Below, piece after piece: positions 2,195-21,507 of a stretch of DNA of 64,000 nucleotides. Location of the stretch: assembly GCA_019090385.1 (NCBI GenBank), contig JAHRWB010000025.1, forward strand, positions 1-64,000, given 5' to 3'. Position numbers and translations under genes: made by a program. The DNA comes from Pseudomonadales bacterium (GTDB taxonomy: Bacteria > Pseudomonadota > Gammaproteobacteria > Pseudomonadales > Azotimanducaceae). The first letter of the stretch is position 1. Every line of letters starts with the position of its first letter. The notes under the pieces are model-generated. The model saw only the letters and a list, made by a program, of their open reading frames with translations. It was not told where the DNA came from and ran no database searches.

Positions 2195-3370
2195 TTATCT
2201 GAGTCCAAGTCCGCGTGCAATAATACCCCGCAAAATTTCCCGGGTGCCTCCTCGCAAAGAGTAAGAAACAGAATTTTGAATCAAAAAGCCGAGTACTTGC
2301 TCCAGGTCGCTGCCATCTCCCAGGGTAGGTTCAACAGAGAAGATCTGTTGGGCAATAGTGGGTATTTCTTGTTCAAAAATCGCACCTAGGTCCTTCACTA
2401 TTGAGCCTTCCAGGGCTGGATCTTCCCCGGCATTGAGTTTTCCAGCTACGGATACTGACATTTGCCTTAGGGTTACAAGGTGGGCTACCAGTCTACCGAT
2501 TGCTGTATATCCCTGGGGCGACGGGCTATCTTTGAGCGCCTTGATCATTTGTATAACCAACTGAATGCTGGACAGGTATCGCTCCGGACCACTGCGCTCA
2601 AAGGCCAGTTCTGCCATTACCTGAGACCAGCCATTGTGTTCCGAGCCAACCAATGCGGTGTCCGGTAAAAAAGCATCTTCAAAGGTTACTTCATTAAAAT
2701 GCTTCTCTCCTAACATACTGCTGATAGGGCGAACGAAGATGCCATTTTTTTCTTTCAAGTCGTTGCCGTTAGAATCTCGTAAGTCGACAACAAATTGACT
2801 GAGTCCATCATGACGATTTTGTTCGTTAGTTCGGGTGCGAAACAGGGCTATCATGGTATGCGCTTTATCGGCGTTGCTGGTCCATATTTTTCTGCCGTTG
2901 ATAAGGTAGCCACCGTCTACTTTTGTTGCCTTGGTTCGCACCGAGGCCAAATCGGATCCACTGTCGGGTTCACTCATGCCGATGCAATAAAACATTTCAC
3001 CACGGGTAACCGGAGGTAAATACTTTTGGCGTTGTTCTTCAGTACCGAAATTCAGCAGCAGGGGGCCACTTTGCCTGTCCGCAATCCAGTGCGCGCCCAC
3101 TGGTGCACCTGCTACCAGCATTTCTTCAAGCATCACATAACGCTCAAAGGACGTGCGTTCCTGGCCACCATATTTTTTTGGCCAGACCATGCCAATCCAA
3201 CCTTGAGCGCCCATTTTACGGCTGAATTCCGGATCGGCACCGCTCCAGCTTTGTGCGCGGTCTAATGGCTTGCGGCTGGCATTGTGCTCTTTCAGAAATT
3301 CCCGTGCTTCTTCGCGCAAGGTAGCGGCTGCGGGAGGCATTTCTACCGGATCGAAACTAAATGTCTGCAT
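2195..3370 (-). CDS. Acyl-CoA dehydrogenase
   Basis: This 391-residue protein covers the full acyl-CoA dehydrogenase fold. The FAD and substrate loop is seen in CIGMSEPDSGSDLASVRTKA and WTSNADKAHTMIALFRT, and the C-terminus LRGGTREILRGIIARGLGL matches the dehydrogenase C-terminal block, with Gly/Arg where MCAD-like enzymes carry the catalytic Glu of YEGT. It introduces an alpha-beta double bond into an acyl-CoA and passes electrons to ETF. An AGAGGAAG ribosome site precedes the ATG. It sits between a NUDIX gene and the short dehydrogenase gene and is probably co-transcribed and perhaps co-assembled with the latter. Confidence 0.93.
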   Translation of the reverse strand: MQTFSFDPVEMPPAAATLREEAREFLKEHNASRKPLDRAQSWSGADPEFSRKMGAQGWIGMVWPKKYGGQERTSFERYVMLEEMLVAGAPVGAHWIADRQSGPLLLNFGTEEQRQKYLPPVTRGEMFYCIGMSEPDSGSDLASVRTKATKVDGGYLINGRKIWTSNADKAHTMIALFRTRTNEQNRHDGLSQFVVDLRDSNGNDLKEKNGIFVRPISSMLGEKHFNEVTFEDAFLPDTALVGSEHNGWSQVMAELAFERSGPERYLSSIQLVIQMIKALKDSPSPQGYTAIGRLVAHLVTLRQMSVSVAGKLNAGEDPALEGSIVKDLGAIFEQEIPTIAQQIFSVEPTLGDGSDLEQVLGFLIQNSVSYSLRGGTREILRGIIARGLGLR

Positions 3371-3399
3371 TTACACTTCCTCTTTCTTGTTCCGGAAAT

Positions 3400-4149
3400 T
3401 TAATATTTTTCAATGGTATTCTCGAATACAAAGCCATCTTTCAGCATAATCAGTCTGTGACGGTCTCCTTCCATATCTGCATCTGCACTCTCGTAACCCG
3501 CATCTCCCTGCCACATTGCCACCCGAGCACCGTCTGCCCGTTTAGCCGGTGTGGTGACATAGATCTTTTCGGGGTTGGTTTTGAAGTGATCAATAATTGA
3601 GCTGGAGGGGGCATACCGGGATAGGTGATACAAGGTAATCCATGTTGGCGGAGCCAGGTCAATGTCGCCCGCTGCATGTTGTGCCAATGCTGCTTCGGGA
3701 CTAATCCACTTGTGATCTGTTATTTCTCCGCCGTCGATGTTGATGACATGATCCTGTTTGACATGGGCTGCAAAAAACCAGGTCGAAAACCTTCTGGCGG
3801 TGGTATGTGGGGGTGTCCAGTGGGCAAACCAGACAAATTCTTCAGAGCTGAGATCAATTCCTGCTTCTTCATGGGATTCCCGAACTGCTGCATTGCGGGC
3901 AGTGGCGAGCGTATCGCCATTTTCAGACTGGTCAGCGTCATCAATACGTCCGCCGGGAAACACCCACATGCCGCCAAAGGCAATTTTTGAGTTTTTACGC
4001 AACATCAATACTTCTACATTGCTGCTGTCATCGTCTTTGAGTAGAACCACCGTTGCCGCAGGTATTGGGGGATCTTGCTCCTGCTTTTTTTTGCTGAAAT
4101 CACCGTAAATGTCATTTCGATGTTTATTCTCGGTTTTAGAGTCTGTCAA
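3400..4149 (-). CDS. NUDIX hydrolase, NUDT19/CoA-pyrophosphatase-like
   Basis: The protein begins with the fold-typical PAATVVLL strand, followed by LMLRKNSKIAFGGMWVFPGG and the NUDIX box with core REsHEEAG. The FPGGRIDDAD spacing and long insert before the box resemble NUDT7/NUDT19-type acyl-CoA diphosphatases, which hydrolyse CoA esters to phosphopantetheine and 3',5'-ADP. That fits its place at the head of an acyl-CoA dehydrogenase operon. No ATG is available. I chose the TTG at 4149 because AAAGGGG lies 9 nt upstream, rather than the TTG at 4170, which has no ribosome site. A paralogue occurs at 44014-44775. The NUDIX family is certain; CoA specificity is inferred. Confidence 0.85.
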   Translation of the reverse strand: MTDSKTENKHRNDIYGDFSKKKQEQDPPIPAATVVLLKDDDSSNVEVLMLRKNSKIAFGGMWVFPGGRIDDADQSENGDTLATARNAAVRESHEEAGIDLSSEEFVWFAHWTPPHTTARRFSTWFFAAHVKQDHVINIDGGEITDHKWISPEAALAQHAAGDIDLAPPTWITLYHLSRYAPSSSIIDHFKTNPEKIYVTTPAKRADGARVAMWQGDAGYESADADMEGDRHRLIMLKDGFVFENTIEKY

Positions 4150-4499
4150 AATAGTGGTCCCCTTTGGCAAATTGGCAATTTTTCAGCATAATTCTTCCAT
4201 TGTGATTTATTTCCATCACAAGAAAGCAGGCAGCGGCGAATTTAATTTCTGAACCTGGAAAAAGCAGGATTGGCCGCCGTGACCAAGGTCGATCGATTTT
4301 GCTACTGCGTATCCATCTTAAACCGAAAACGCTTGATGCTTCAACGCAGCTCAGCTTTGCCTTTGTTCAATGTCTTAATTGGCTGCTTAAAACGCAATCT
4401 GTAGCGGTCCATTATTGACTGAGCTGGGGATAGGCGGTTTACTCCAAAGAGCTTGGGGCTTGAGCTGCGTGAAAGCGTGGGAAACTACTGGAGAAAAGC
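4150..4499. other. Divergent intergenic region
   Basis: This 350-bp gap separates the leftward NUDIX operon from the rightward hydrolase/CoA-transferase pair and must carry both promoters. No open frame resembling a protein was recognised. The only clear structure is the inverted repeat at 4201-4220, annotated separately. No convincing sigma70 boxes could be fixed by eye. Confidence 0.6.
4201..4220. promoter_or_regulatory. Perfect 6-8-6 inverted repeat, candidate operator
   Basis: TGTGAT and ATCACA flank an 8-bp spacer, giving a perfect 20-bp dyad about 50 bp upstream of the preferred NUDIX start. The half-sites resemble CRP half-sites, but CRP sites have TGTGA and TCACA six bases apart and here they are ten apart, so CRP binding is unlikely. 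A catabolic repressor site is possible. Confidence 0.35.
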
Positions 4500-5336
4500 A
4501 TGGGGCAAAATGAATGGCTGGAATGCGGTGATGCGAGGATACACTATCAAACTGCGGGAACAGTGGGGCAACCCATTGTATTTGTGCATGGTTTGACCTG
4601 TAGTCTGGCTGATTGGCATTTTCAAGTAGAGCATTTCAGTGACAAGCATCGTATTGCCAGCATCGATTTGCGCGGGCATGGTGAATCAAGGGGTGGAGAA
4701 GAATCCATTGGTATTGAGACCTTTGCTTCGGATGTCGTTGCTTTGCTTGAACAGCTAAATTTCGAAAACGTGATTCTGGTGGGTCACAGCATGGGTTGTC
4801 GGGTGGTAATGGCTGCCTGTTATATGCAGTCGTCACGGATTTCTGGTTTGGTGCTGATAGATGGTAGTCGCCTTGGAGAAGGGAGTGCAGATGAAATAGA
4901 AGCCAGTGCTCGGGCGCATGTGGCCAGTACCGGTTATAAGACATTTCATCACGGGATGTTTGAAACCATGTTTACGCCTGACAGCAATCCAGAAATGCGT
5001 GATTCAGTTATGGCGCGCTGTGCATCTGTTCCAGAAACTGTAGGCGTGGCTGCTTATATCGGATCGATCCGGTGGGACGCTCTCATGTTGATGACGGTTT
5101 TGCCCAATCTTGCTGTGCCGATACTGATTTTGCAGAGTACTTATGTAAATGACCAACGTGTTCGTGTATCACTAAAAGTAGGTGAGGTCTCGCCATGGAT
5201 GAGTTATGTGCTTGCCGAAGCCCGGGATGCGCAAGTTGAAGTCATTCCTGATGTGGGGCATTTTACCATGTTAGAGCGACCCAATCAGGTCAATGAAATG
5301 ATAAAAGAGTTTATTACCCAGAGGTTTGATGCATGA
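4500..5336 (+). CDS. Alpha/beta hydrolase
   Basis: This 278-residue protein is a soluble serine hydrolase of the alpha/beta fold. The oxyanion strand FVHGLTCSLADWH, the segment DLRGHGES and the nucleophile elbow VGHSMGC (Ser97) are present, as is a C-terminal DVGHFTMLERP carrying the catalytic His. Proteins like this hydrolyse esters, enol lactones or carbon-carbon bonds in ring-fission products. The ATG follows GGAG. Its stop overlaps the start of the next gene by 4 bp (ATGA), so it is translationally coupled to the CoA-transferase-like gene and probably acts on the same substrate line. The exact reaction cannot be read. Confidence 0.88.
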   Translation: MGQNEWLECGDARIHYQTAGTVGQPIVFVHGLTCSLADWHFQVEHFSDKHRIASIDLRGHGESRGGEESIGIETFASDVVALLEQLNFENVILVGHSMGCRVVMAACYMQSSRISGLVLIDGSRLGEGSADEIEASARAHVASTGYKTFHHGMFETMFTPDSNPEMRDSVMARCASVPETVGVAAYIGSIRWDALMLMTVLPNLAVPILILQSTYVNDQRVRVSLKVGEVSPWMSYVLAEARDAQVEVIPDVGHFTMLERPNQVNEMIKEFITQRFDA

Positions 5337-6523
5337 GTTATATGTTAGAGGGCTTAAAAGTTATTGACGCAGCATCCTATTTGGCCGCGCCAGGAGCGGC
5401 CACAATAATGGCGGACTACGGTGCCGATGTGATTAAAGTGGAAGCGCCCCAGGGTGATGCCTATAGACGCCTTCATGGTCGATATCATCATGATTTTAAC
5501 TGGTCGCTCACCTCGCGGAATAAACGGGATATTGGCCTGGATCTAAACGAGGAATCAGGCATCAGCGTTTTGCATCGCTTGATAGACACAGCGGATGTGC
5601 TATTGATTAATTTTCGAGAAGATCAGGTTAAGAAATATAAGCTTGAATTTGAGGCGCTGAAAAAACGCAATCCTCGACTGATTTACGCCCAGTTTACCGG
5701 GTTTGGAACGGTGGGCCCTGAAAAGAGCAGGCCCGGGTATGACGTCACCGGCTGGTGGGCCAGGACAGGCATTATGGATCTGGGTAAGGGTTTTGGCGAG
5801 GCGCCGACTTATCCAGTAGGGGGCGTGGGTGACCATGCTTCGGCAATGACATTATTTGGTGCTGTCATGCTGGCCTTGTACAGCCGGGAGAAAACCGGGC
5901 AGGGCAAATATGTTTCCACTTCATTGGTAGCCAATGGATGTTGGGCCAACGGCATGCATTTGCAAGGTGCGATAGCAGGCTATGATCTTGGCGAAATACT
6001 GGACGAAAAAGGCTACCGAAACCCTTTTGTTGCAGTCTATAAAACCAGAGATGAGAGATTTGTCGTTATAGTGCTAAATAATCCGGAAAAGGAGTGGCCG
6101 CGGATAGCAAGTAGTCTGGGCCATACAGAGTGGGTAGCGGACGCCCGGTTCGGTGATATCAAGGCCATAATGAAGCAAAGGGATATGGTTAAAAAAATGT
6201 TTAGCGACGCATTCGCCATGCTGGATTTGTCAGATGTTTGCGCTGCTCTGGAAAAGGAAAAACTAACCTATGCCGCCGTTGAGCGAATATCGGATGTGGT
6301 GAAGGATGCGCATTTAATCGAGAACGAAATTATTGTTCAAACCCAATCGGATAACCCTGATTATCAATGGGCAGTTGCGAATCCGATTAAAATTCATGGT
6401 GAGGCACAGAAGCCAGCCGGGGATGCGCCAGCAATTGGGGAGCATACCCGTGAAATACTTCTGCAAGCGGGTTTTCCAGAAAATGAGATTGAACTTTTGT
6501 TGAAAAGCGGTGTGGTGGTTTAA
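5333..6523 (+). CDS. CaiB/BaiF family III CoA-transferase homologue lacking the usual aspartate
   Basis: At 396 residues the protein has the family III CoA-transferase layout: N-terminal GADVIKVEAPQGDAYR, the middle RPGYDVTGWWARTG and the segment REKTGQGKYVSTSL. In family members, including the two others in this window, the last segment is followed by the catalytic Asp (SMLDT, SLLDT). Here the sequence runs SLVANGCW, with Ala200 at that position. Either it belongs to a subgroup with a different mechanism or it is a non-catalytic partner. It is coupled to the upstream hydrolase by a 4-bp overlap and has an AGAGG ribosome site. Family membership is firm and activity is open. Confidence 0.88.
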   Translation: MSYMLEGLKVIDAASYLAAPGAATIMADYGADVIKVEAPQGDAYRRLHGRYHHDFNWSLTSRNKRDIGLDLNEESGISVLHRLIDTADVLLINFREDQVKKYKLEFEALKKRNPRLIYAQFTGFGTVGPEKSRPGYDVTGWWARTGIMDLGKGFGEAPTYPVGGVGDHASAMTLFGAVMLALYSREKTGQGKYVSTSLVANGCWANGMHLQGAIAGYDLGEILDEKGYRNPFVAVYKTRDERFVVIVLNNPEKEWPRIASSLGHTEWVADARFGDIKAIMKQRDMVKKMFSDAFAMLDLSDVCAALEKEKLTYAAVERISDVVKDAHLIENEIIVQTQSDNPDYQWAVANPIKIHGEAQKPAGDAPAIGEHTREILLQAGFPENEIELLLKSGVVV

Positions 6524-7793: not shown

Positions 7794-9821
7794 TTAAGGA
7801 ATATTTTTCCATACAAGGATATCTTTTACATGGGAGAACATTTTTTTAAATGAAGTTTCCTTGATGGTTTCAATCAATTCATTCAATTTAAATTTCCCGT
7901 GCAGCTCGCGCACTACACCTAACTGTTCCATTTCGACCAGGTCCAAATCTCGCGCGTGTTCTTCAAAGTCTTTGTTTTTCCAGAAAAAGGCACCTGGCAT
8001 GGTGGTGGGAATTACCAGTACGAAGAACAATGATCGGCTGATGGTGGTGGCAGCGATAGTCAATATGCTTAACCCTGCCCATAACATGAGAGCGCTCCAG
8101 CCTTCGCTCCAGATTTCTGAGCCGGGAAGTAGAGCAGAGAGCATCAGCCCGGTTGCAAGCACGGATGCAGTGATTAACAGGGCATTTCGAGTCAACCAGG
8201 GATAGCCATATCGCGTGACCTGGATATACCATGAAGAGGCGCCTTCGTTTCCTTGTTTGGTCATGGCTTGGCCATGACAAATATGTCCCAGGCCTTCAAG
8301 AATCAGACCGGCACTGGCGATAGCTGCCAGTGCAAGGAATAAATTTGAGCTGGGTAAAGTGTTCAATAACAATGCAGGCAATGCGATGAGACCGGTAAGC
8401 AGGGCACCCAGGCTGAGCGTATTGCCTGCAAAGGCCGTGGCAGTTTGCCAATGATCCCAATAGGGACGTGCTTTAATGCGGTATATGCGATACATATAAT
8501 ACAGCCCGACCAGACCACTGAACCCGGCTCCGCCAATGCAGATGTTTTTAAGGAGCGTAACAGCACTGGCATCGAGCCATAGTTCTAGCACTGCAAAAAA
8601 TGCAAAGCCAAGTAGGCAGGTATAAAACCCTGTTATCCCGGCGATTTCTCTGCTAAGCGGCGACCAGCGCAAATTGTTGAAGCCGCGATAAAATCGATGC
8701 GGTTTGCCAAGGTGCATGTTGAGTTTAAACAGGCCAAAACTGAGCAGGCCAACCATGATCGCCATTAGCGGTAGCCATACCTGCGGTATTTGTAACGCAG
8801 AGAGTGGTGTCTCAAAAGGCGATAGTGCCGTGCCCAAGAGTATAAAAGCGCCCAATACAGCCTGGGTAGAAAGCGTGAAAATAACGTGTGCACTCTCATG
8901 GGAGGTGAGCAGTTTGCGCCAGTTCCACTGTTTTTTCTCTCCGATTTTTTTATCGACCACAGGCTGAAAGTGACCCACTGCATCATCTTTCTGGTACTTT
9001 ACCGGCATACCATCAGGTCGAGTCATTTCCCTCTGGGTGCTGCGGGTTTGCTGAAAACGAATATTGGGCTGAGTGATATCAGTAGAGGGAAATCCCGGGA
9101 TTTCAGTTTTTGCTTCAATGCGATTTGCGGGAATATTCTCTATTACGCCAAAATCCAGGGCATTGCCCAGGCAGGCGGAAACGCAGGCAGGTTTTAGGCC
9201 GACTTCTAGTCGGTCAACACACATGTTGCATTTGGTGACTTCCCCTTTGATGGGGTCTAGTTGTGGTGCATTGTAAGGGCATACCCAGGTGCAGTAGCCA
9301 CAGCCAAAACAAATATCCGGGTCCTGCAGTACTGCTCCGAATTCAGCAAATTTTGTATAAGCGCGGGTCGGGCAGCCCTTTAGGCATACGGGGTCATCGC
9401 AGTGGTTACAGGCCATGGAGATATTGATGCGATGGTAGTCAGGATAGGTTCCGCCTTCGACAAAACCCACCGAGCGAAATGCAATGTGTGCCGGGTTATC
9501 GTTTTTTTCGCTGCAGGCTGTTTCGCAGGCATGGCAACCAATACAGTTGTCAGCGTTAAAATAAAACCCGTGTTGCTTATAGCGGTTAGGGTTGTCACCG
9601 ATGGCATCGTTATTGTTAATGTTCAGGCTTACACCATGCAGCTCACTACTTTGGTTAGCCAGGTCGATCAGGTTGCCATGGCAATTGGTGCTTGCTTGTT
9701 GATCAGCTTCAGGCTCGGTATTTTCAGGCTTGGGGTCCCAAAGAAACGCATGTGCAGGCTCGTCCTCGCGGACTTTAAAAATTGGTGTTTCGGATTTGTC
9801 ACTGGCAATAATATTATTCAT
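7794..9821 (-). CDS. Fused four-cluster ferredoxin and DmsC-like membrane anchor, probable electron donor to nitrate reductase
   Basis: This 675-residue protein joins two parts. Residues about 85-250 form a DmsB-like module with four cysteine groups (CIGCHACETAC, CNHCDDPVCLKGCP, CFGCGYCTWVCP with CNMC, and CVSAC), enough for four [4Fe-4S] clusters. Residues about 305-620 are a DmsC-like integral membrane domain with roughly eight hydrophobic helices and the segment HLGKPHRFYRGFNNLRWSPL. There is no signal peptide. It should oxidise quinol and pass electrons to the molybdoenzyme encoded just upstream, whose stop codon it overlaps by one base (TAATG). Such fusions beside NasA-like genes would replace the NAD(P)H- or ferredoxin-dependent donors of other assimilatory systems. 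The domains are clear; the redox partner is inferred from position. Confidence 0.85.
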   Translation of the reverse strand: MNNIIASDKSETPIFKVREDEPAHAFLWDPKPENTEPEADQQASTNCHGNLIDLANQSSELHGVSLNINNNDAIGDNPNRYKQHGFYFNADNCIGCHACETACSEKNDNPAHIAFRSVGFVEGGTYPDYHRINISMACNHCDDPVCLKGCPTRAYTKFAEFGAVLQDPDICFGCGYCTWVCPYNAPQLDPIKGEVTKCNMCVDRLEVGLKPACVSACLGNALDFGVIENIPANRIEAKTEIPGFPSTDITQPNIRFQQTRSTQREMTRPDGMPVKYQKDDAVGHFQPVVDKKIGEKKQWNWRKLLTSHESAHVIFTLSTQAVLGAFILLGTALSPFETPLSALQIPQVWLPLMAIMVGLLSFGLFKLNMHLGKPHRFYRGFNNLRWSPLSREIAGITGFYTCLLGFAFFAVLELWLDASAVTLLKNICIGGAGFSGLVGLYYMYRIYRIKARPYWDHWQTATAFAGNTLSLGALLTGLIALPALLLNTLPSSNLFLALAAIASAGLILEGLGHICHGQAMTKQGNEGASSWYIQVTRYGYPWLTRNALLITASVLATGLMLSALLPGSEIWSEGWSALMLWAGLSILTIAATTISRSLFFVLVIPTTMPGAFFWKNKDFEEHARDLDLVEMEQLGVVRELHGKFKLNELIETIKETSFKKMFSHVKDILVWKNIP

Positions 9822-12025
9822 TAATAGGTTCGCAAGGCCTTACTCTGGCGGGCTGCACTGGCCTGATCTTCTATGGGTTCGATACGTACAGCCGATTGCT
9901 TAAAAGCAGGCTGGCGCGAATGCGGATCTAACAGACCCAGGGTCAGCCGGTTGACACAGTCGAAATAGTGAAAGGGAATAAACACCATGTTCCTTGGTAC
10001 CCGCTGGGTCAGCATAGCCATTACTACTGCATCGCCTCGTCTGGATAAGCAGCGTACATATTCCTGGTGCCTGATACCAAGCTCTGCCGCTGCATCCGGA
10101 TTTATTTCCATAAAAGGAATAGGGCTGAACTTATTATTGTTGCCGACTTTTCCTGTGCGGGTACGGGTGTGGAAATGTTCAACCAGCCTTCCGGTATTTA
10201 GCCATAGCGGAAATTGAGCGTCGGGTTTTTCATTGTTGTCAATAAAGGGCAGGGGAATCAGCTTGGCGCGTTTGTCACTATGGCAAAAGTTGGTGGCAAC
10301 CGTATAGAGACGTTTTCCGCCGGGTAATGGCATTTCACCAGCATCTCTCTGCCGGGCTGTATAGGGCCATTGTATACCTCTGCTGCTTTCTATCAGATCG
10401 TGGTCCATGCCCGAGAGGTCCATCAGGCGTCCCTCTGAAAGCGTGCGCATTTCCTCAAATACACCAGCGGCATTGTCGGGAAATGTTACTTGTTTATTAG
10501 GGTCCAGCAGGGTGGCCAGTTCGTTAAAAATGTGCAGATCAGATTTGCTTTTGGCTTTGGGCGGAGTCACTTGACGGACTACATTGACGCGTCGCTCGGT
10601 GTTGGTAAAAGTACCTTCTTTTTCAGCCCAGATGGCCGCAGGTAAAAACAGATGTGCATATTGATTGCTCTCCATGTCTGCATAGGCATCCTGCACGACG
10701 AGAAACTCGAGCTTTTCAAGGGTTTTGCGAATGCGCGGCGTATTGGGCATTGAAGTTAGCGGGTTGGTCGCAACCAGCCACAGGCCCTTAATTTGTCCGG
10801 TTTCTATAGCAGGAAAGATATCGGTTTGGCACAATCCACGTTTTTTTGGGAAAAATTCCGGGTCAACATTCCAGAACTTGCCAATTTCTTCACGGTGCTG
10901 ATCATTCTCCAGTTGACGATAACCGGGCAGTCCTGAGCAGGACGACCACTCCCGAGTGCCCATCGCATTGCACTGGCCGGTTATGGACAGTGAAGTTCCA
11001 CCCGGTTTTCCAATATTTCCTGTAATCAAGCTGAGATTGTTGAGTCCTACCACCCCATCCGAGCCATGGGTACTTTGATTAATACCCATTGTCCAAATAT
11101 TCATTGCTGCCGGGGCATTGGCATATAATCTGGCGACGTGACGAATGGTGTCTTCATCGATACCACAGATTTTATAGGCCGAGGCCGGGTCATAGTTGGC
11201 CACTTCTTCTTTTAGTGCCTCCAGACCTGTGGTGTTGGCCTCAATGTAATCGCTGTCTTCTAGCTGTTCTTCAAAAATGACATGCATCATGGCATTTTGT
11301 AAAACCACGTCAGTGCCTGGACGAATCGGTAGGTGGATGTCAGCAAATTGCGCGAGCATGGTAACTCTGGGGTCGATGACAATTAGCGGAAAACCTCGCT
11401 TTTCCAGGGCTTCTTTTAATCGCCAGTAGATAATGGGGTGTTGTTCGGGCAGGTTGGAGCCCCAGGCCAGCAAGCAGTCTGTGTGTTCGAAATCTTCGTA
11501 ACATCCAGGTGGCCCGTCCGAGCCGAAAGAGCGCTTATAGCCGGATACAGCAGATGCCATACAAAGCGTTGTATTTCCATCGTAGTTATTGGTGCCGATT
11601 AAACCCCGAGCCAATTTACCCAGTGTGTAAAACTCTTCAGTAAGTAATTGTCCGGTGGAAACAATAGCAAAGGCATCATCTCCGAAATCCTGCTGGATAC
11701 GATTAATCTCCCCTGCCATGTGATTCAGTGCTGTATTCCAGCTGGCTGGTTTGAAATCTTGTCCGATGTGTTGACGCATGAGAGGCGTTTCACCGCGTCC
11801 GGGAGAATTAAATAATTCGTGTCCATACATGCCTTTCAGGCACAGTTTTCCACGGTTGACATCGGCTCCGCCGACACCGCGTGACGCTACCACCTCTCCC
11901 GATGCATTTTTGCCAAGTTCGATGGCACAGCCCGTGGAGCAGTAGCCGCAGGTGGCATAAGTCCAGTCGGTTACCTGTTTGTCGGCAATGTGAACAGGAT
12001 TTTTACGGTGGCGGCCAAAAAGCAT
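9821..12025 (-). CDS. nasA: Assimilatory nitrate reductase catalytic subunit, NasA/NarB type
   Basis: This 734-residue molybdopterin guanine dinucleotide enzyme has an N-terminal [4Fe-4S] site (Cys26, Cys29, Cys33, Cys62) followed by Lys64, and a Mo-ligating Cys155 in TTLCMASAVSGYK, the arrangement of NasA/NarB/NapA nitrate reductases. It has no Tat signal, so it is cytoplasmic and assimilatory rather than periplasmic. It also lacks the extra C-terminal [2Fe-2S] domain of the longer Klebsiella NasA, so its length matches cyanobacterial NarB. It reduces nitrate to nitrite. It lies one base after the PhzF-like gene and overlaps the ferredoxin/DmsC fusion gene, so the three are one transcription unit with nirBD. 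Confidence 0.92.
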   Translation of the reverse strand: MLFGRHRKNPVHIADKQVTDWTYATCGYCSTGCAIELGKNASGEVVASRGVGGADVNRGKLCLKGMYGHELFNSPGRGETPLMRQHIGQDFKPASWNTALNHMAGEINRIQQDFGDDAFAIVSTGQLLTEEFYTLGKLARGLIGTNNYDGNTTLCMASAVSGYKRSFGSDGPPGCYEDFEHTDCLLAWGSNLPEQHPIIYWRLKEALEKRGFPLIVIDPRVTMLAQFADIHLPIRPGTDVVLQNAMMHVIFEEQLEDSDYIEANTTGLEALKEEVANYDPASAYKICGIDEDTIRHVARLYANAPAAMNIWTMGINQSTHGSDGVVGLNNLSLITGNIGKPGGTSLSITGQCNAMGTREWSSCSGLPGYRQLENDQHREEIGKFWNVDPEFFPKKRGLCQTDIFPAIETGQIKGLWLVATNPLTSMPNTPRIRKTLEKLEFLVVQDAYADMESNQYAHLFLPAAIWAEKEGTFTNTERRVNVVRQVTPPKAKSKSDLHIFNELATLLDPNKQVTFPDNAAGVFEEMRTLSEGRLMDLSGMDHDLIESSRGIQWPYTARQRDAGEMPLPGGKRLYTVATNFCHSDKRAKLIPLPFIDNNEKPDAQFPLWLNTGRLVEHFHTRTRTGKVGNNNKFSPIPFMEINPDAAAELGIRHQEYVRCLSRRGDAVVMAMLTQRVPRNMVFIPFHYFDCVNRLTLGLLDPHSRQPAFKQSAVRIEPIEDQASAARQSKALRTY

Positions 12026-12026
12026 A

Positions 12027-12944
12027 TTAGAGAGGGTCCAGGTTCAGTGAATTTTCGCTGACCAGGATAACTTCTCCGCCAACTCTCAGTGTGATCAGTT
12101 TGTCTTTGTGGTTGTCAATTTCAATGTGTAGCACACTACGTCGTGTTTCTTCGCTACCGCGGTCGATAGTGAAAGTATAAGTGCCTGGACGTATATGACT
12201 ATGATCACCCAGGTATCCTGCAAAACAGGGCAGAACCGATCCAATGGGTGGGTCTTCGTGCATGCCTATCGCGGGCCCCAGCAGGCGACCGTGGAAATCA
12301 GTGTCCTGGTTGTCTGTCTTATTGCTGAATAAAAAGATTTCCTGGGCCGCCATCGCCGGTGCACTGGATTGGCTCCAGGCATTCAGTGAGAAGCGCGCTT
12401 TCCGTACGGCTTGCTGGGATAACAAGGGAACGATGAGATAAGGGGTATCAATAGCGGCCAGGCGTGGATAAAAAGTGCGCGAGTCAATATCTTTCTCTTC
12501 TATACCTAACAATCGTGCTAGCTCGGAAGTGGTTGGCGTATAACGGTCAATAGTGGGATCGGCCTTGAGTGAAAACTGTACGAATAGGGGTTTGTCATTT
12601 GGCTGAGTCAGGTTAACTGTGGCATTACCGGCATTTTGACAAAATACAAGGGAGGCCTGCTTATCTGTCAGTTGGATGCGTTCGCTTGCCAGCATAGCTC
12701 TGGCAGCAGCCAACATCGGGTGACCTGCGAAATCTATTTCTCCCATAGGAGAAAATATACGTAGTTTGAATGTCATTGGCTGTTCATCAGCCAGAATAAA
12801 TACTGTTTCGGATAAATTCAGTTCTTTTGCAATCAGGGGCATGACTTCGCTGGGTACAGCATCGGCATCTGGAAAAACTGCAATCTGGGCGCCTTGAAAC
12901 AGCGTGTCGGTAAATACGTCGGCTGTGTAGTAGTTGTACTTCAC
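12027..12944 (-). CDS. PhzF-family isomerase/epimerase-like protein in the nitrate operon
   Basis: The sequence has the hallmark PhzF-family start (DVFTDTLFQGAQIAVFPDAD) and the active-site strand LNLSETVF, in which Glu46 corresponds to the catalytic glutamate, and later GHPMLAAARAM. PhzF-like proteins have a diaminopimelate-epimerase fold and catalyse isomerisations; most are uncharacterised. I chose GTG at 12944 because AGGAG lies 5 nt upstream. The first possible GTG (12950) lies inside that ribosome site. It sits two bases after nirD and one before nasA, so it is embedded in the operon. No published role of PhzF proteins in nitrate reduction is known to me. Confidence 0.88.
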   Translation of the reverse strand: MKYNYYTADVFTDTLFQGAQIAVFPDADAVPSEVMPLIAKELNLSETVFILADEQPMTFKLRIFSPMGEIDFAGHPMLAAARAMLASERIQLTDKQASLVFCQNAGNATVNLTQPNDKPLFVQFSLKADPTIDRYTPTTSELARLLGIEEKDIDSRTFYPRLAAIDTPYLIVPLLSQQAVRKARFSLNAWSQSSAPAMAAQEIFLFSNKTDNQDTDFHGRLLGPAIGMHEDPPIGSVLPCFAGYLGDHSHIRPGTYTFTIDRGSEETRRSVLHIEIDNHKDKLITLRVGGEVILVSENSLNLDPL

Positions 12945-12946
12945 GA

Positions 12947-13324
12947 TCACTCCTGGATTAGTTCTGAGGATTGGACATAAACCTGACCGTCGGCAATTTT
13001 GCTTGGGTAGGTCTTGAGAGCAACATCCTCATCTTCAAAGCATGTGCCTGAGTTCAGGCAAAAGTGTTGCTTGCCTATAGGTGAGGCGACAGCCAGTTCA
13101 TCTCCGATACTGCACAAAATACCGCGAGATATCACATTGGCTTCGCTAAAGGGATCGAAATTACTCACCGCGAAAATAGTACTCTCACCCTGGGTGGTGC
13201 TGGTTATCCTAAACAAGGCAATTTGTTCCTCTGTCGGTTTTCCTTCATCCAGCAGGGCAGCCGTGCCAGCATCAATTGGCAGTGCTTCTAATTGGCAAAT
13301 TTGTATCCATTGGGTATCAGTCAT
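12947..13324 (-). CDS. nirD: Nitrite reductase small subunit NirD
   Basis: This 125-residue protein is the Rieske-fold small subunit of assimilatory NAD(P)H nitrite reductase. The conserved pieces AVSNFDPFSEANVISRGI, VASPIGKQHFCL and TCFEDEDV are typical. Like other NirD proteins it lacks the Cys2His2 ligands of true Rieske proteins and so carries no cluster. It follows nirB by 53 bp and precedes the PhzF-like gene almost without a gap. It assists NirB in reducing nitrite to ammonium in the cytoplasm. Confidence 0.93.
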   Translation of the reverse strand: MTDTQWIQICQLEALPIDAGTAALLDEGKPTEEQIALFRITSTTQGESTIFAVSNFDPFSEANVISRGILCSIGDELAVASPIGKQHFCLNSGTCFEDEDVALKTYPSKIADGQVYVQSSELIQE

Positions 13325-13377: not shown

Positions 13378-15921
13378 TCATAAGGAAACCACTTTTATTC
13401 CCTGGCGTTTTTCGTCACTGGTGGCGGGTCGTATCTGACCGCGCTCCTCGACAAAAACCACATTGCTGTCGCCTTTTTCGCTATTAATAAAGGGTTGGAA
13501 CATACGTAATTTTTCTTCGTCTTCAATAGTGGTTTTCCACTCACATTGATAGCTGCCGATAACTTCAACCATCTCCGCTTCTAGCTGTTCGCATATGCCC
13601 AGTGAGTCTTCTATGACGACTTCACGAAGATAATCCAGGCCACCCTCCATGTTGTCCATCCAGGTTGAGGTACGTTGTAGACGATCCGCAGTTCGCACGT
13701 AAAACATTAGAAAGCGATCGATGTATTTGATCAGGGTTTCTTTGTCCAGATCGGTTGCGAACAAGTCTGCATGGCGGGGGCGCATGCCACCATTGCCACC
13801 GACATACAAGTTCCAGCCATTTTCAGTGGCGATTATGCCAAAGTCTTTGCTTTGGGCTTCGGCACATTCCCGGGTACATCCGGATACGGCAGATTTTAGT
13901 TTGTGGGGTGAGCGGAGTCCTTTATAGCGGTTCTCAACTTCCAGGGCCAACGCAACACTGTCATCTTGTCCGTAACGGCACCAGCTTGTGCCTACACAGC
14001 TTTTAACTGTGCGTAAGGCCTTACCGTAAGCATGGCCGGTTTCAAACCCGGCATCGATGAGTAATCTCCATATTTCGGGGAGTTGTTCCAGCCGGGCGCC
14101 AAATAAATCGATGCGCTGACCACCAGTGATCTTGGAATAAAGTTTGTATTTTTTTGCCACTTCACCAAGCACAATGAGTTTTTCCGGTGTTATCTCACCA
14201 CCTGGAATTCTCGGCACAATTGAATAGGTGCCGTTTTTTTGCATATTGCCCAGATAGCGATCATTGGTATCCTGCAATCCAGCATGTTCCGGCTCAAGGA
14301 CATAGTCGTTCCAGCAGGAGGCAAGAATGGACGCTACGGTAGGTTTGCAAATATCGCAGCCACGGCCGCTGCCGTGTTTTTCGATGAGATCAAAAAAGGA
14401 TTTAATTTTTTCGACGCGTACCAGATTGTAGAGGTCTTGACGGGTATAGGGGAAGTGCTCGCAGAGATCTGTATTTACTTCTAGCCCCATTTTTTCCAAC
14501 TCGGCGTTAAGTACCTGACCAACCAGTACATTACATCCACCGCAGCTGGTGCCGGCTTTTGAGCAGGCTTTTAAATCACCCAGAGTGGTGGCGCCGTCAG
14601 AGATAAATTGGCAGAGATCACCCTTTGATACATCGTTACACGAGCAAATTTGTGCGCCATCGGGCAATGCTTCAACGCCTAAACCGGTAATACCACTACC
14701 GTCACGCTGAGGTAATATGAGTGCATCAGGAAATTCGGGAAGGGGGATATCATTGAGTACTATTTGCAGTAGATTGCCGTAATCCGTTGCATCGCCTACC
14801 AGCACCGCTCCGAGTAAACGATTGTTATCTGAGTTAACGACAATCTTTTTGTAAACTTCGGTACTGCCATCCACATAAGTATAGACTTTGGCATCCGGGG
14901 TGTTGCCGTGTGCGTCCCCGATGCTGGCTACATCTACGCCCATTAGTTTGAGTTTGGTGCTCATATCCGCACCGGTAAATGTGTTGTCACCGGTGTTGCT
15001 GATGTGATCGGCTGTTACCTGGGCCATTCGATAACCTGGTGCAACAAGGCCATATATGCGTCCACCGGATAACGCGCATTCACCTATGGCATAAATATCA
15101 GGATCTGAAGTTTGGCAATGGTCGTTGACGACAATACCGCCACGTTCACCAAGCTCCAGACCGAATTCCCTGGCCAGTGTATCTTGCGGTCGAATACCAG
15201 CGGAAAAAAGCAACACATCGGTTTCGATGATGTCGCCATCAGCAAAGGTCATTTTATGAAAATGTTGATCGCCATCTTCAATGTTTTGTGTATTTTTACC
15301 CGTATGTACCTGTACACCCAGATCCTCGATTTTCTGACGTAACATGGCTCCGCCGCCATCGTCGACCTGTACTGCCATCAGGCGTGGAGCGAATTCAACT
15401 ACGTGGGTGGTCAAACCAAGATCCTTTAGGGCTTTGGCTGCTTCCAGTCCAAGCAATCCTCCGCCAATGACAACGCCAACTGAAGAGCCCTGGGCACTGG
15501 CACGTATAGCTTCCATGTCCTCAATGGTGCGATACACAAAGCAATTGTCGCGCTTGTGGCCTGGAATGGGTGGTACGAAAGGATACGATCCTGTGGCCAG
15601 AACCAGTTTATCGTAGCTCAGGGTTTCGCCGTTTTCTGAGGTTACGGTTTTGGCTTTACGATCAATACTTACAGCTTTGTCATTGAGCAAGATGCGGATA
15701 TTGTGCTGCGCGAAAAAATCGGGTTCAACGAGCGACAGGTCTTCTGCTGAGTGTCCACTGAAATAATCTGTTAGGTGAACTCGATCGTAGGCGGCTCGAG
15801 GTTCTTCACAGAATGTGGCTATTTCAAACTTATCAGCATCGGAATGTGTGGTCATTGCTTCAAGGAACTTATGGCCCACCATACCATTGCCAATAACCAG
15901 TATTTTTTGCTTGACGCTCAT
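13378..15921 (-). CDS. nirB: Nitrite reductase large subunit NirB
   Basis: At 847 residues it has the full NirB length and domain order. The N-terminal FAD/NAD(P)H oxidoreductase has GNGMVGHKFLEAM and VVIGGGLLGLEAAKAL. The BFD-like [2Fe-2S] domain has the cysteine pattern CSCNDVSKGDLC plus CSKAGTSCGGC. The sirohaem/[4Fe-4S] domain has CVGTSWC and CTREC. It reduces nitrite to ammonium with six electrons from NAD(P)H. It is the first gene of the leftward nitrate operon, and an AGG-containing ribosome site precedes the ATG. Regulation probably runs through the 15922-16431 region. Confidence 0.96.
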   Translation of the reverse strand: MSVKQKILVIGNGMVGHKFLEAMTTHSDADKFEIATFCEEPRAAYDRVHLTDYFSGHSAEDLSLVEPDFFAQHNIRILLNDKAVSIDRKAKTVTSENGETLSYDKLVLATGSYPFVPPIPGHKRDNCFVYRTIEDMEAIRASAQGSSVGVVIGGGLLGLEAAKALKDLGLTTHVVEFAPRLMAVQVDDGGGAMLRQKIEDLGVQVHTGKNTQNIEDGDQHFHKMTFADGDIIETDVLLFSAGIRPQDTLAREFGLELGERGGIVVNDHCQTSDPDIYAIGECALSGGRIYGLVAPGYRMAQVTADHISNTGDNTFTGADMSTKLKLMGVDVASIGDAHGNTPDAKVYTYVDGSTEVYKKIVVNSDNNRLLGAVLVGDATDYGNLLQIVLNDIPLPEFPDALILPQRDGSGITGLGVEALPDGAQICSCNDVSKGDLCQFISDGATTLGDLKACSKAGTSCGGCNVLVGQVLNAELEKMGLEVNTDLCEHFPYTRQDLYNLVRVEKIKSFFDLIEKHGSGRGCDICKPTVASILASCWNDYVLEPEHAGLQDTNDRYLGNMQKNGTYSIVPRIPGGEITPEKLIVLGEVAKKYKLYSKITGGQRIDLFGARLEQLPEIWRLLIDAGFETGHAYGKALRTVKSCVGTSWCRYGQDDSVALALEVENRYKGLRSPHKLKSAVSGCTRECAEAQSKDFGIIATENGWNLYVGGNGGMRPRHADLFATDLDKETLIKYIDRFLMFYVRTADRLQRTSTWMDNMEGGLDYLREVVIEDSLGICEQLEAEMVEVIGSYQCEWKTTIEDEEKLRMFQPFINSEKGDSNVVFVEERGQIRPATSDEKRQGIKVVSL

Positions 15922-16431: not shown

Positions 16432-17898
16432 ATGCCTGAGAAACTGCGACTATTATCTTTTACCGGCAAGTATCGAATATTGCATACAACCTGGTTTGCT
16501 TTTTTTATCAGCTTTATGGTGTGGTTTAACCATGCCCCCCTGATGGTCATTATTCGCGAGGTATTTGCGCTGACGGATCAGGAAGTTAAAGTGCTCTTGT
16601 TGCTTAATGTTGCACTGACTATTCCTGCGCGAATTGTGGTGGGTATGCTGGTAGACAGTTATGGGCCCCGGCGTTTGTTTTCCGGTATTTTAATTCTCTC
16701 CGGTGGTCTGTGCTATTTCTTTGCGATGGCGGAGAATTTCCAACAATTGGCCGTGGCTCGGTTCTTACTGGGTTTTGCCGGTGCGGGCTTTGTGGTGGGC
16801 ATCCGCATGATCGGAGAATGGTTTCCGGCTAGCCAGGCGGGTACCGCCCAGGGTATATACGGGGGTTGGGGAAATTTTGGTTCGGCGGCTTCTGCTATGT
16901 CTTTACCGATGTTGGCACTGTGGTTTGGCGGGGAAAATGGTTGGCGTTATGCACTGCTGTGCACGGCGGTAATTTCGGTGTGTTACGGAGTTTTCTATTT
17001 TTTTGCAGTCACCGACACGCCCAAGGGTTCAACCTATTTCAAACCCAAAAAAATGGGTGCAATGGAAGTTACCAGCAAAGGTGATTTGATTATTTATCTG
17101 CTAATGAGCTTGCCAATTTATGGCGCGCTGGCGCTGCTGGTCTGGAAGTTGTCACCTGTGGGCATGGCATGGTTGTCTCCAACGTTCACCTTCTCAGCCT
17201 ACTTTGCCATCGCTGCGGTTTATCTGGTCCAGGCCTATAAAATTATTCAGGTCAATAAGGGGATTTTTCATAAAGAAGTACCGGAAATGTTTCGTTATCC
17301 CTTTAAGCAGGTAGCTATTCTTGATTTGGCTTATCTGGTGACTTTCGGGTCTGAGCTTGCCTTGGTTTCGATGTTGCCGCTCTTTTATACGGATACTTTT
17401 CATCTGTCTCCTATAATGGCTGGTGTGCTGGCCGGGGCTTACCCGGTAATGAATCTTATTGCTCGCCCTGGTGGGGGTGTTCTGAGTGACAAGCTGGGTC
17501 GTAAACGTAGCCTGGTTATTTTGTTTTCTGGCATCGTGGTTAGTTTTATGGTCTTGGGTCAGGTCAGTGCAGATTGGGCGGTTGCCTTGGTACTGATAAC
17601 GACGCTGGTTTGTGGGTTATTTGCCAAGGGTGGTTCTGGTGCGGTGTTTGCTATGGTGCCGCTAATTAGCCGTCGTATGACGGGTCAGGTTGCGGGCATG
17701 GTGGGTGCATATGGCAATGTAGGGGGCCTGGTATTTTTAACAGTACTGTCTTTTGTATCTCCACAATCGTTTTTTTTGATCATCGGAGGCACCGCGGCAT
17801 TTGTTTTGTTGGTTACACTGCTCTTTCTGGAAGAACCAAAAGGACAAACTGCCGAGATCCTGGAAGATGGAACCGTGCAGATGATAGACGTGGCTTGA
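16432..17898 (+). CDS. NarK/NasA-type nitrate/nitrite transporter (MFS, NNP family)
   Basis: This 488-residue, about 12-helix transporter has the two glycine-rich nitrate signatures of the nitrate/nitrite porter family, GGWGNFGSAASA near residue 145 and GAYGNVGG near residue 425, and the early segment NHAPLMVIIREVF. It imports nitrate, or exchanges nitrate and nitrite, across the inner membrane. It faces away from the nirB operon, behind a sigma54-type promoter, and is followed after 22 bp by the phosphatase-kinase gene. Its place in an assimilatory locus argues for nitrate uptake. A GGACGG ribosome site precedes the ATG. Confidence 0.92.
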   Translation: MPEKLRLLSFTGKYRILHTTWFAFFISFMVWFNHAPLMVIIREVFALTDQEVKVLLLLNVALTIPARIVVGMLVDSYGPRRLFSGILILSGGLCYFFAMAENFQQLAVARFLLGFAGAGFVVGIRMIGEWFPASQAGTAQGIYGGWGNFGSAASAMSLPMLALWFGGENGWRYALLCTAVISVCYGVFYFFAVTDTPKGSTYFKPKKMGAMEVTSKGDLIIYLLMSLPIYGALALLVWKLSPVGMAWLSPTFTFSAYFAIAAVYLVQAYKIIQVNKGIFHKEVPEMFRYPFKQVAILDLAYLVTFGSELALVSMLPLFYTDTFHLSPIMAGVLAGAYPVMNLIARPGGGVLSDKLGRKRSLVILFSGIVVSFMVLGQVSADWAVALVLITTLVCGLFAKGGSGAVFAMVPLISRRMTGQVAGMVGAYGNVGGLVFLTVLSFVSPQSFFLIIGGTAAFVLLVTLLFLEEPKGQTAEILEDGTVQMIDVA

Positions 17899-17920: not shown

Positions 17921-19636
17921 ATGAGTAACGACGAATTAATCAGCCTTGGCCAGTATTCTGATACGGGTATCAAACCTGAAAATCAGGACAGTTATGGTGT
18001 TTTAGTGCCGGAATTCCCGGGATTGGACTACAAGGGTATTGTTGCGGTATTGGCCGACGGCGTAAGTGGTTGCGATGAAGGAAAAATGGCCAGCGAGACT
18101 TGTGTGGCTTGCCTTTTGGATGATTATTACGCTACGCCAGATTCCTGGACGGTCAAAAAATCGGTAGAAAAAGTATTGTTGGCGACTAATCGCTGGATGT
18201 ACGGTCAGGGGCAGCAGGGCGTGGACGCGCGCAAGGGCCTGGCAACTACTCTAAGTGCGCTGGTGGTGAAATCCACCACCGGATATATTTTTCATGTGGG
18301 CGATACCCGCATCTATCGCATGCGTGATTCAGAATTGGTCCAGATGACTAAAGATCATCGGGTTTGGGTCTCGGAGGACAAAAATTATTTAACCCGAGCC
18401 ATGGGTATCGATTTGCATTTGGATATCGATTATCACAAGTTTGTAGTAGACCAGGGTGATATATTTATTCTGACCACCGATGGCGTGCACGAGTATATGC
18501 CGGATACTGCCATTGCAGATTTGGTGTCCAGGAATGTTGAAAATCTTGATCGAGCGGCGCGTGAAATAGCCACCTTGGCCTTACGTAATGGCAGTCCGGA
18601 TAATGTCACGTGCCAGATTGTGCGCTTCAATCATCTGCCCGGTACCGGTGAAAATGAGTTATACAAAAAACTCACTGAGTTTCCTTTTTTACCTGAACTC
18701 AGTGCAGGCATGAAGGTTGATGGATATAAGATTCTACGCAGCTTGTACGCTAGCAATCGTACCCAACTTTACTTGGCTTTGGATGAAGATAGCGATACCC
18801 AGGTTGTGCTGAAATCGCCCTCGGTTAATTTTGAGGATGATCCTGTATTTCTTGATATGTTTATGCACGAGGAGTGGGTTGGCAGCCGCTTGAATAACAA
18901 TCATGTATTAAGTGTGATTAGCCAGAGTAAGCGGCGTAATTTTCTCTACTACGTTGCAGAGTATATTGATGGCCGGACCTTACGTGCCTGGATGAATGAT
19001 TCGCCCAAGCCGGATTTGACTGAGGTCCGTGAAATTCTCGGACAAATTGCTCGAGGTTTAACGGCATTCCATAAGATGGAGATGATTCATCAGGATCTGA
19101 AGCCTGAAAATATCATGATAGATGCCCAGGGCACGGTAAAGATAATTGATTTTGGCTCGACAAAAATTGCTGGAATTGAGGAGATTGCCTCACCTTTGCA
19201 ACGCCTGACATTGCTGGGGACTAAAAATTATACGGCGCCGGAATACCTGCTGGGTTATCCGTGCTCCACGCGCTCTGATATTTTTTCGCTGGGGGTCATC
19301 GTTTACGAAATGCTCACGGGTCATTTGCCTTATGGTGAGAATTACGATGAGGGATCTGTCCAGAAAATGGGTTATACCTCGGCTCGACGCTGGGTGCCCG
19401 AGTTGCCGGTTTGGATAGATGGTGCATTGGAACGAGCGGTGAAAAAAGATGTTAATAGGCGGTATAGTGAATTATCAGAGTTTGTTTATGATTTGGCCAA
19501 CCCTAACAAAGATTTCCTTAGTGAACACAACGAACCTTTACTGGTAAGAAATCCAGTCGGTTTTTGGCAGGGTTTCACTGCCATTAGTTTTATAATAAAT
19601 GTGCTGCTCATTATAAAACTGTTCTGGAAAGGGTGA
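17921..19636 (+). CDS. Fused PP2C phosphatase and Ser/Thr protein kinase with C-terminal membrane anchor
   Basis: The 571-residue protein has an N-terminal PP2C-type phosphatase (about 1-240; metal-binding ADG at 45-47, GDTR at 127-130, TTDG at 185-188, DNV at 227-229). A eukaryotic-type kinase domain follows (about 265-545): ATP Lys298, catalytic-loop HQDLKPEN with Asp392, and Asp410 of DFG, then APE at 439-441. A terminal hydrophobic helix (about 548-568) should tether it to the inner membrane. The catalytic loop has HQD instead of HRD. It follows the nitrate transporter by 22 bp, and Pseudomonas aeruginosa has a kinase gene at the same place (PA1782). It probably adjusts nitrate uptake or reduction by reversible phosphorylation; the target is unknown. 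No ribosome site is obvious. Confidence 0.9.
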   Translation: MSNDELISLGQYSDTGIKPENQDSYGVLVPEFPGLDYKGIVAVLADGVSGCDEGKMASETCVACLLDDYYATPDSWTVKKSVEKVLLATNRWMYGQGQQGVDARKGLATTLSALVVKSTTGYIFHVGDTRIYRMRDSELVQMTKDHRVWVSEDKNYLTRAMGIDLHLDIDYHKFVVDQGDIFILTTDGVHEYMPDTAIADLVSRNVENLDRAAREIATLALRNGSPDNVTCQIVRFNHLPGTGENELYKKLTEFPFLPELSAGMKVDGYKILRSLYASNRTQLYLALDEDSDTQVVLKSPSVNFEDDPVFLDMFMHEEWVGSRLNNNHVLSVISQSKRRNFLYYVAEYIDGRTLRAWMNDSPKPDLTEVREILGQIARGLTAFHKMEMIHQDLKPENIMIDAQGTVKIIDFGSTKIAGIEEIASPLQRLTLLGTKNYTAPEYLLGYPCSTRSDIFSLGVIVYEMLTGHLPYGENYDEGSVQKMGYTSARRWVPELPVWIDGALERAVKKDVNRRYSELSEFVYDLANPNKDFLSEHNEPLLVRNPVGFWQGFTAISFIINVLLIIKLFWKG

Positions 19637-20310: not shown

Positions 20311-21507
20311 ATGAGTGGACCGCTGGCAGGCGTAAAAGTACTGGATCTGGCTGCTGTTGTTTCTGGCCCCTTAACGGCTACTTTGCTGTCTGATCAGGGT
20401 GCGGAAGTTATCAAGGTAGAGAGAATTGGTAGCGGAGATATCCAGCGACACGTGGGTAGCAAAAGGAATGGCACGCCGGGGTTTTTTCATATGCTAAATC
20501 GCGGAAAACTGTCCATTGCGCTGGATATGGCAAGGCCGGAAGCGATTGAGATTATTCGTAAACTCGCGGCAAAGAGCGATGTTGTGGTGCAGAATTTTCG
20601 TCCCGGGGTTGTTGACCGGCTGGGTATTGGTTTTAAAAATCTTTCTGCTTGCAATAGCAAACTGATTTATCTGTCTATTAGCGGTTTCGGACAATCTGGT
20701 CCCCAGTCACACAAGCGAGCCTATGATCCCATCATTCAAACTTATTCCGGTATGGCTGCGGTACAGGGCTTGAAAAGGGGCGATGGCCCCGAACAGGTTA
20801 ATCAGCTAATTATGGATAAATTGACTGCGTATACTGGCAGCCAGGCGATCTGTGCGGCTTTATATAGTCGCTCACAAAGTGGCAAAGGCCAGCATATTGA
20901 GTTGTCCATGCTGGATACGGCTATCGCGTTTATGTGGCCTGATGCCGGTGCGGATAATATTTTGCAGGGAGAAGGTATAGAGCATAGCCCACCGATTGGT
21001 GGCTCTGGTCAGCTCATGCGCTTTGCTGATGGTTGGGGCACCATGATGTTGCTGACTGACTCCGAATTTCGTGGTATGTGTCATGCCTTCGAGAAACCCG
21101 AGCTTGCTGCCGATGACCGGTTTAGTACCCTTGCCAAACGTATAAGCAACCGGCAGGTTCTGGGAAAAATTATGCATACCCAGGTTGAAGAGGTGGCTTT
21201 AACTATTAGTTTGGAAGATGCAGAAGAGCGATTTGCACGACATGAAGTACCCTTTGCGCGATTGCGTCATTTGCACGAACTGCCGGATGACCCCCAGGTA
21301 AAACACAATAAAATGTTTAGTTTGCTAGATCATCCGGTGGCAGGACCGTTAAGAGAAACACGGCCCGCAGCGCAGTTTTCAGCGACCCCGGCCAGCCCAG
21401 CAGGACCCGCACCTGCTGTGGGAGAACATACGGCAGAAGTGCTGGGCTCTATTGATATGTTAGATCAGCTGGATACGCTGCTAGCTGAAAAAATTGTCGG
21501 TATCTGA
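20311..21507 (+). CDS. CaiB/BaiF family III CoA-transferase
   Basis: This 398-residue protein shows the complete family III set: GAEVIKVERIGSGDIQR, NFRPGVVDRLGIGF, ISGFGQSGP and GKGQHIELSMLDT with the catalytic Asp202. The enzyme moves CoA between carboxylic acids through an enzyme-bound acyl anhydride, or may racemise 2-methylacyl-CoA. An AGGATAT ribosome site precedes the ATG. Neighbours are an ABM protein, a VOC protein, a thioesterase and a CMD-family protein, so it probably activates the acid degraded by this cluster. An imperfect dyad (GTAGTT/AACTAC, 20262-20279) lies about 40 bp upstream. Confidence 0.92.
   Translation: MSGPLAGVKVLDLAAVVSGPLTATLLSDQGAEVIKVERIGSGDIQRHVGSKRNGTPGFFHMLNRGKLSIALDMARPEAIEIIRKLAAKSDVVVQNFRPGVVDRLGIGFKNLSACNSKLIYLSISGFGQSGPQSHKRAYDPIIQTYSGMAAVQGLKRGDGPEQVNQLIMDKLTAYTGSQAICAALYSRSQSGKGQHIELSMLDTAIAFMWPDAGADNILQGEGIEHSPPIGGSGQLMRFADGWGTMMLLTDSEFRGMCHAFEKPELAADDRFSTLAKRISNRQVLGKIMHTQVEEVALTISLEDAEERFARHEVPFARLRHLHELPDDPQVKHNKMFSLLDHPVAGPLRETRPAAQFSATPASPAGPAPAVGEHTAEVLGSIDMLDQLDTLLAEKIVGI

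Follow-up and report, generated by a model that had tools for sequence, protein, structure and literature searches.

A NasA-type nitrate reductase paired with a fused ferredoxin/DmsC-like anchor: a probable quinol-fed route of nitrate assimilation in gammaproteobacteria

We analysed a locus of a Pseudomonadales bacterium (Azotimanducaceae) in which the gene for a NasA-type nitrate reductase overlaps that for a protein combining a ferredoxin with a membrane anchor. The sequences of both proteins suggest that the pair forms a membrane-attached, cytoplasm-facing quinol:nitrate oxidoreductase for nitrate assimilation, a reading to which we assign a probability of about 75%. We further consider it reasonably likely that the pair represents a widespread, previously unrecognised type of enzyme, NasA with a fused and inverted DmsBC. 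It would take electrons from respiratory quinol at the cytoplasmic face and, in methanotrophs, hydrocarbon degraders and sulfur oxidisers, couple nitrogen nutrition directly to the respiratory chain. In many gammaproteobacteria of marine and fresh waters, the nutritional nitrate reductase seems to be built as a membrane complex fed directly by the quinone pool. A search of open-access literature turned up no account of NasA together with a fused DmsBC.

The DNA studied, referred to as the window, is a stretch of 64,000 nucleotides (assembly GCA_019090385.1, contig JAHRWB010000025.1, positions 1-64,000 of the forward strand). On its minus strand lie the gene for the catalytic subunit, predicted to be cytoplasmic (9821..12025, 734 aa), and that for the fused electron-transfer and anchor subunit, in which a DmsB-like ferredoxin is joined to a DmsC-like quinol domain (7794..9821, 675 aa); the start of the fusion and the stop of nasA overlap by one base. 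Open reading frames, overlap and domain reading had been given exactly in a preliminary description of this DNA.

Pfam recognised the domains Molybdop_Fe4S4, Molybdopterin and Molydop_binding in the catalytic subunit, and found no C-terminal BFD [2Fe-2S] domain in the window NasA or its clade, as the preliminary description had said. Residues Cys26, Cys29, Cys33 and Cys62 are conserved, indicating a single [4Fe-4S] cluster, and so is Cys155, the ligand of Mo-bisPGD, within the motif TLCMAS. The motif NAMGTREW was present in the window NasA and in all 97 of 97 pair-associated NasA proteins. Scores against both named Nas equivalogs of NCBIfam fell below the cut-off (NasC, 511.5 bits against 1100; haloarchaeal NasA, 463.2 bits against 1000), and the protein is therefore filed in the NasA/NasC/NarB superfamily, under neither equivalog. 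The best NCBIfam match, also below its cut-off, was to a formate dehydrogenase model (TIGR01591), an identity ruled out by motif and tree. The formate dehydrogenase from the window's genome carries VCHS and NVQGSCDM, as against TLCMAS and NAMGTREW in NasA, and in a tree of 43 sequences the formate dehydrogenases split off with support of 100/100, the pair-associated NasA proteins all falling into one clade (100/100) on a long stem. Nor did the subunit qualify as DmsA, scoring 133 bits against dmsA_ynfE (cut-off 777.7). An RR motif within the first 30 residues was seen in 0 of 97 NasA homologues, in agreement with the Tat signal having been called absent, and none of the 97 has a hydrophobic signal stretch at the N-terminus. 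By its domains, motifs and position in the tree, the catalytic subunit is assigned as a nitrate reductase of the Nas/Nap branch.

The fusion begins with a conserved extension (residues 1-80; 9582..9821, minus strand) that has no Pfam match and whose conserved stretch ends in NPNRYKQHGF; it is possibly a docking segment. In the DmsB-like ferredoxin domain that follows (residues 83-230; 9132..9575, minus strand), Pfam detected Fer4_11 (135-226), and TIGR02951 scored 161.9 bits, not reaching its cut-off of 214.1. All 16 cysteines of this domain are 100% conserved across 78 homologues and, since they provide enough ligands, the fusion is predicted to hold four [4Fe-4S] clusters. The domain is nearest to DmsB, with 42% identity to the E. 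coli protein versus 35% to a SoeB. The membrane domain (residues 308-604; 8010..8900, minus strand) has eight helices and a predicted cytoplasmic N-terminus, and matched DmsC (PF04976) over residues 308-601 with 57 bits versus a cut-off of 22.3, which upholds the earlier reading of four clusters and a DmsC-like domain in one polypeptide. A conserved C-terminal tail, predicted to be cytoplasmic (residues 605-675; 7797..8009, minus strand; core IPTTMPGAFFWKN), is absent from E. coli DmsC, to which the fusion is 31% identical.

In E. coli DmsC the quinol residues are H65, S82 and E87, and a change of H65 blocks quinol oxidation (PMC8076601). They correspond to H370, S387 and E392 of the fusion, which are invariant in 66 homologues. 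In an AlphaFold model of the fusion the eight helices were modelled well and the ferredoxin domain poorly (mean pLDDT 72.5), and a Foldseek search of this model against the PDB returned nothing at E <= 0.001; the top-ranking entries, bd-type quinol oxidases at E ~0.02, were disregarded. No hydrophobic N-terminal stretch was found in the fusion, as expected from the earlier claim that it has no signal peptide.

The loops of the window fusion carry 6, 4 and 3 K/R residues on the ferredoxin side and none on the opposite side. Across 116 homologues the mean number of K/R residues was 13.1 on the near (ferredoxin) side versus 0.62 on the far side, with near exceeding far in 116/116. Odd-loop/even-loop counts in the periplasm-facing controls were 8/3 for E. 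coli DmsC, 11/2 for YnfH and 9/1 for Aeromonas DmsC, and SoeC (0/20) shared the pattern of the fusion (0/13). Because the K/R-rich loops lie on its side and the controls are reversed as expected, the ferredoxin domain is predicted to be cytoplasmic; a periplasm-facing B/C unit as in DmsABC was not found, the loop-charge pattern being opposite in all the homologues. The preliminary description had called for a topology prediction and had placed the iron-sulfur part on the cytoplasmic side, opposite to DmsABC. The loop charges bear out this placement; the inversion itself is not new, having been proposed for SoeABC, where SoeC is described as inverted (PMC8076601). We also examined 20 unfused DmsC-family proteins of the gammaproteobacteria, which had the SoeC charge pattern and whose genes were all in Soe loci, with SoeB/SoeC in 20 and SoeA in 19. 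A direct descent of the inverted anchor from SoeC is nevertheless unsupported: in a tree of membrane domains, unrooted and with long branches, the fusion groups with DmsC/YnfH and not with SoeC (94/99). The fusion would be a further case of a cytoplasm-facing DmsC-family anchor.

Upstream of the pair on the minus strand, Pfam and NCBIfam identified nirD, the Rieske-type small subunit of NADH nitrite reductase (12947..13324), and nirB, its large subunit with FAD, BFD [2Fe-2S] and sirohaem domains (13378..15921). The preliminary description, which saw no flavin partner nearby, was mistaken on this point, as NirB (FAD/NADH) and NirD are encoded in the same operon. A gene of the PhzF family (isomerase) lies inside the operon between nirD and nasA (12027..12950, minus strand) and overlaps nirD by four bases. 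Divergent from the operon is a NarK-type nitrate/nitrite transporter gene (16432..17898, plus strand), directly followed by a PP2C phosphatase/Ser-Thr kinase fusion recognised by Pfam (17921..19636, plus strand), possibly a regulator of nitrate uptake. Family III CoA-transferase genes flank the nitrate cluster on either side (5333-6523 and 20311-21507, both plus strand). Across 79 pair loci that each span 12 kb or more, NirB was found near the pair in 65, NirD in 64, NarK in 41, the PP2C-kinase in 37 and PhzF in 32. In some relatives a MoxR-type ATPase (PF20030) is encoded directly downstream of the fusion (L093 13086-16352; L096 5186-6721; L097 4722-6260); it occurs near the fusion in 18/79 loci, and a second, vWA-partner-like gene in 15/79, not near the window pair. 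The ATPase is possibly an assembly factor for the complex.

The window's genome was found to encode no NarG, NapA, BFD-type NasA or second NasA; its only two MopB proteins are NasA and an NAD-linked formate dehydrogenase, and it has only one DmsC-family protein. The assimilatory setting of the pair is supported, at the level of gene content, by nirB, nirD and narK alongside and by the window's genome having no further nitrate reductase. Among 49 genomes with the NasA clade, BFD-type NasA was found in 16 (at the same locus in eight), NapA in 25 and NarG in 3, and 15, the window's genome included, had none of the three. The 16 genomes with BFD-type NasA show that the pair may be accompanied by another assimilatory enzyme. 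Quinol-type pair and BFD-type NasA share one operon at L088 (10754-14192), L089, L090, L091, L092, L093, L094 and L095, and at L088 a DsrC-like gene lies between them.

The proposed quinol site lies close to H370, S387 and E392, on the cytoplasmic side of the DmsC-like domain. Two electrons would then travel along the four [4Fe-4S] clusters carried by the ferredoxin part of the fusion, cross to the single [4Fe-4S] cluster in NasA and arrive at Mo-bisPGD; there, nitrate imported by NarK would be reduced to nitrite. NADH-dependent NirBD would then convert the nitrite to ammonium. The quinol-nitrate step is expected to be electroneutral, with no charge moved across the membrane, because the protons of quinol would be released and those for nitrate consumed on the same cytoplasmic side. 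The preliminary description had predicted quinol-driven assimilatory nitrate reduction; the conserved quinol-site residues and the nirBD/narK context are in line with this, and we infer complex formation, quinol as the physiological donor, electroneutrality and the assimilatory role.

When 84,980 species genomes were scanned for relatives of the fusion, 545 candidate loci emerged, far beyond chance. The best 80 of these 545 were, by their titles, proteobacterial, largely gammaproteobacterial MAGs or isolates, with Porticoccaceae, Cycloclasticus, Methylococcales, Thiotrichaceae and the Solemya velum symbiont among them; the pair is frequent in methanotrophs and Cycloclasticus. NasA immediately preceded the fusion in 70 of 73 homologous loci having upstream room. 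In two of the remaining three, the start of the fusion overlapped the last part of a NasA of 76% identity; one (L032) had no match. In an even sample of 276 gammaproteobacterial genomes the fusion was present in 45, all of which (45/45) also have the NasA clade of 69-79% identity, beyond which NasA identities fall to 40%. The two genes were adjacent in 44/45, and on different contigs in the other (G013). The NasA clade itself occurred in 49/276 genomes, and in the four without an assembled fusion NasA lay at or near a contig end. NasA and the fusion are a recurrent two-gene module. Pairing of the fusion with other molybdoenzymes, named in the preliminary description as an outcome that would speak against it, is ruled out by the pairing with NasA and by the separate Soe loci; likewise, the arrangement of a SoeA-type subunit beside SoeB/SoeC was not seen, as the fusion adjoins NasA in 44/45 genomes and SoeA loci are separate. 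A 602-aa DmsC-containing frame in one genome (G232) turned out to have no relation to the fusion. In a phylum-wide sample, two non-gammaproteobacterial genomes had the fusion at 56-60% identity, a presence outside the class that is consistent with horizontal transfer.

The main rival to a quinol donor is that electrons taken from NADH by NirB reach NasA by way of the Rieske protein NirD, the fusion being an accessory or an anchor. NirB and NirD are homologous to the NADH donor chain of Paracoccus, where the NasB/NasG pair passes NADH electrons to the nitrate reductase NasC (PMC5424462), and their genes share the operon of the pair, with NirB near it in 65/79 loci and NirD in 64/79. Yet the NasA clade is without the C-terminal BFD [2Fe-2S] domain of Paracoccus-type NasA/NasC, and the fusion keeps all cluster ligands and quinol residues, for which a mere anchor would have no use; for these reasons the NADH route is disfavoured. 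In addition, NasA of the clade accompanies every fusion found, but 14/79 loci showed no NirB close to the pair. We therefore regard this route as unlikely.

If quinol is the donor, the main role of the pair could still be dissimilatory or redox-balancing, as a quinol-nitrate reductase that disposes of excess electrons, with assimilation secondary. A quinol link fits respiration or electron overflow, and a separate BFD-type NasA is present in 16/49 genomes, at the same locus in eight. However, little energy would be conserved by a reaction whose quinol and nitrate sites face the same side of the membrane, and no nitrate reductase other than the pair, which lies beside nirBD and narK, was found in the window's genome. 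The pair is also frequent in methanotrophs and Cycloclasticus, which are generally aerobic organisms, and we hold a mainly dissimilatory role to be very improbable. It is also conceivable that the membrane domain merely tethers NasA, and that a soluble ferredoxin or flavodoxin, the donor of NasA/NarB enzymes in other lineages, reduces the ferredoxin domain. The invariance of H370, S387 and E392, which match the DmsC residues required for quinol oxidation and are present in SoeC, argues against a simple tether and makes this the least probable of the alternatives. The quinol-fed assimilatory complex is the reading we prefer.

A quinol feed would explain how this NasA can do without the soluble NADH or ferredoxin partner that is usual for such enzymes. 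The electron donor of nasA has been called 'unclear' in Sulfobacillus (PMC4378227) and Acidithiobacillus (PMC6002666), where an NADH- or ferredoxin-linked subunit is lacking. The module is a candidate donor for part of this gap of NasA without NasB, its link to the Sulfobacillus and Acidithiobacillus strains being conjectural, and would supply the donor for the NasA clade of 49/276 sampled gammaproteobacterial genomes and of cultured methanotrophs. If quinol is indeed the donor, nitrate assimilation competes directly with the oxidases for electrons, its first step spares NADH, and flux models of methanotrophs and chemosynthetic symbionts change.

Among known systems, SoeABC (Allochromatium, Aquifex; PMC8076601) resembles the pair in combining a molybdoenzyme with a four-cluster ferredoxin and a DmsC-family anchor proposed to face the cytoplasm, with a matching loop-charge pattern and an LSRE motif at the quinol site. 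It differs in that it oxidises sulfite and feeds quinone, that SoeB and SoeC are encoded by separate genes, and that SoeA has about 950-1000 aa and is 25-30% identical to NasA over part of its length only. The closest sequence relatives of the B and C parts are those of DmsABC and YnfFGH, the E. coli DMSO and selenate reductases, in which quinol is oxidised at the homologous H65/E87 site. In these systems, however, B and C are unfused, the catalytic subunit reduces DMSO and the charge orientation of DmsC is opposite; DmsAB is exported to the periplasm by Tat. The NADH-linked Nas enzymes (Paracoccus NasB/NasG/NasC; Klebsiella-type NasA with BFD) share with the pair the catalytic superfamily, the NirBD and transporter partners and the nitrate motifs, and are distinguished by their size (about 870-935 aa), a C-terminal BFD [2Fe-2S] domain, an NADH or flavoprotein donor and an identity of 33-40%. 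NarB and haloarchaeal NasA are, like the window NasA, compact and without a BFD domain (Halobaculum, 708 aa); their identity to it is 34%, they are soluble, with ferredoxin as donor, and they are not known to have a quinol subunit. Another donor solution within the superfamily was observed on an Embleya plasmid (L138, near 2501-4678), where the N-terminal part of a 1436-aa frame matches NasA (38% over 9-718) and the C-terminal end is CysJ-type flavoprotein-like; NasA/CysJ enzymes have been described (PMC4013037). On a Thermomicrobium roseum plasmid (L171, 3995-8456), a four-cluster ferredoxin is likewise fused to an anchor beside a 963-aa molybdoenzyme, but its anchor is of the NrfD type (PF03916) rather than DmsC, and the molybdoenzyme does not belong to NasA; this Fer4-NrfD protein is an independent fusion. 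Inverted DmsC-family anchors (Soe), fused Fe-S/anchor proteins (T. roseum Fer4-NrfD) and soluble NasA are known parts; what appears to be new is their combination in a module that would supply nitrate assimilation with electrons from quinol.
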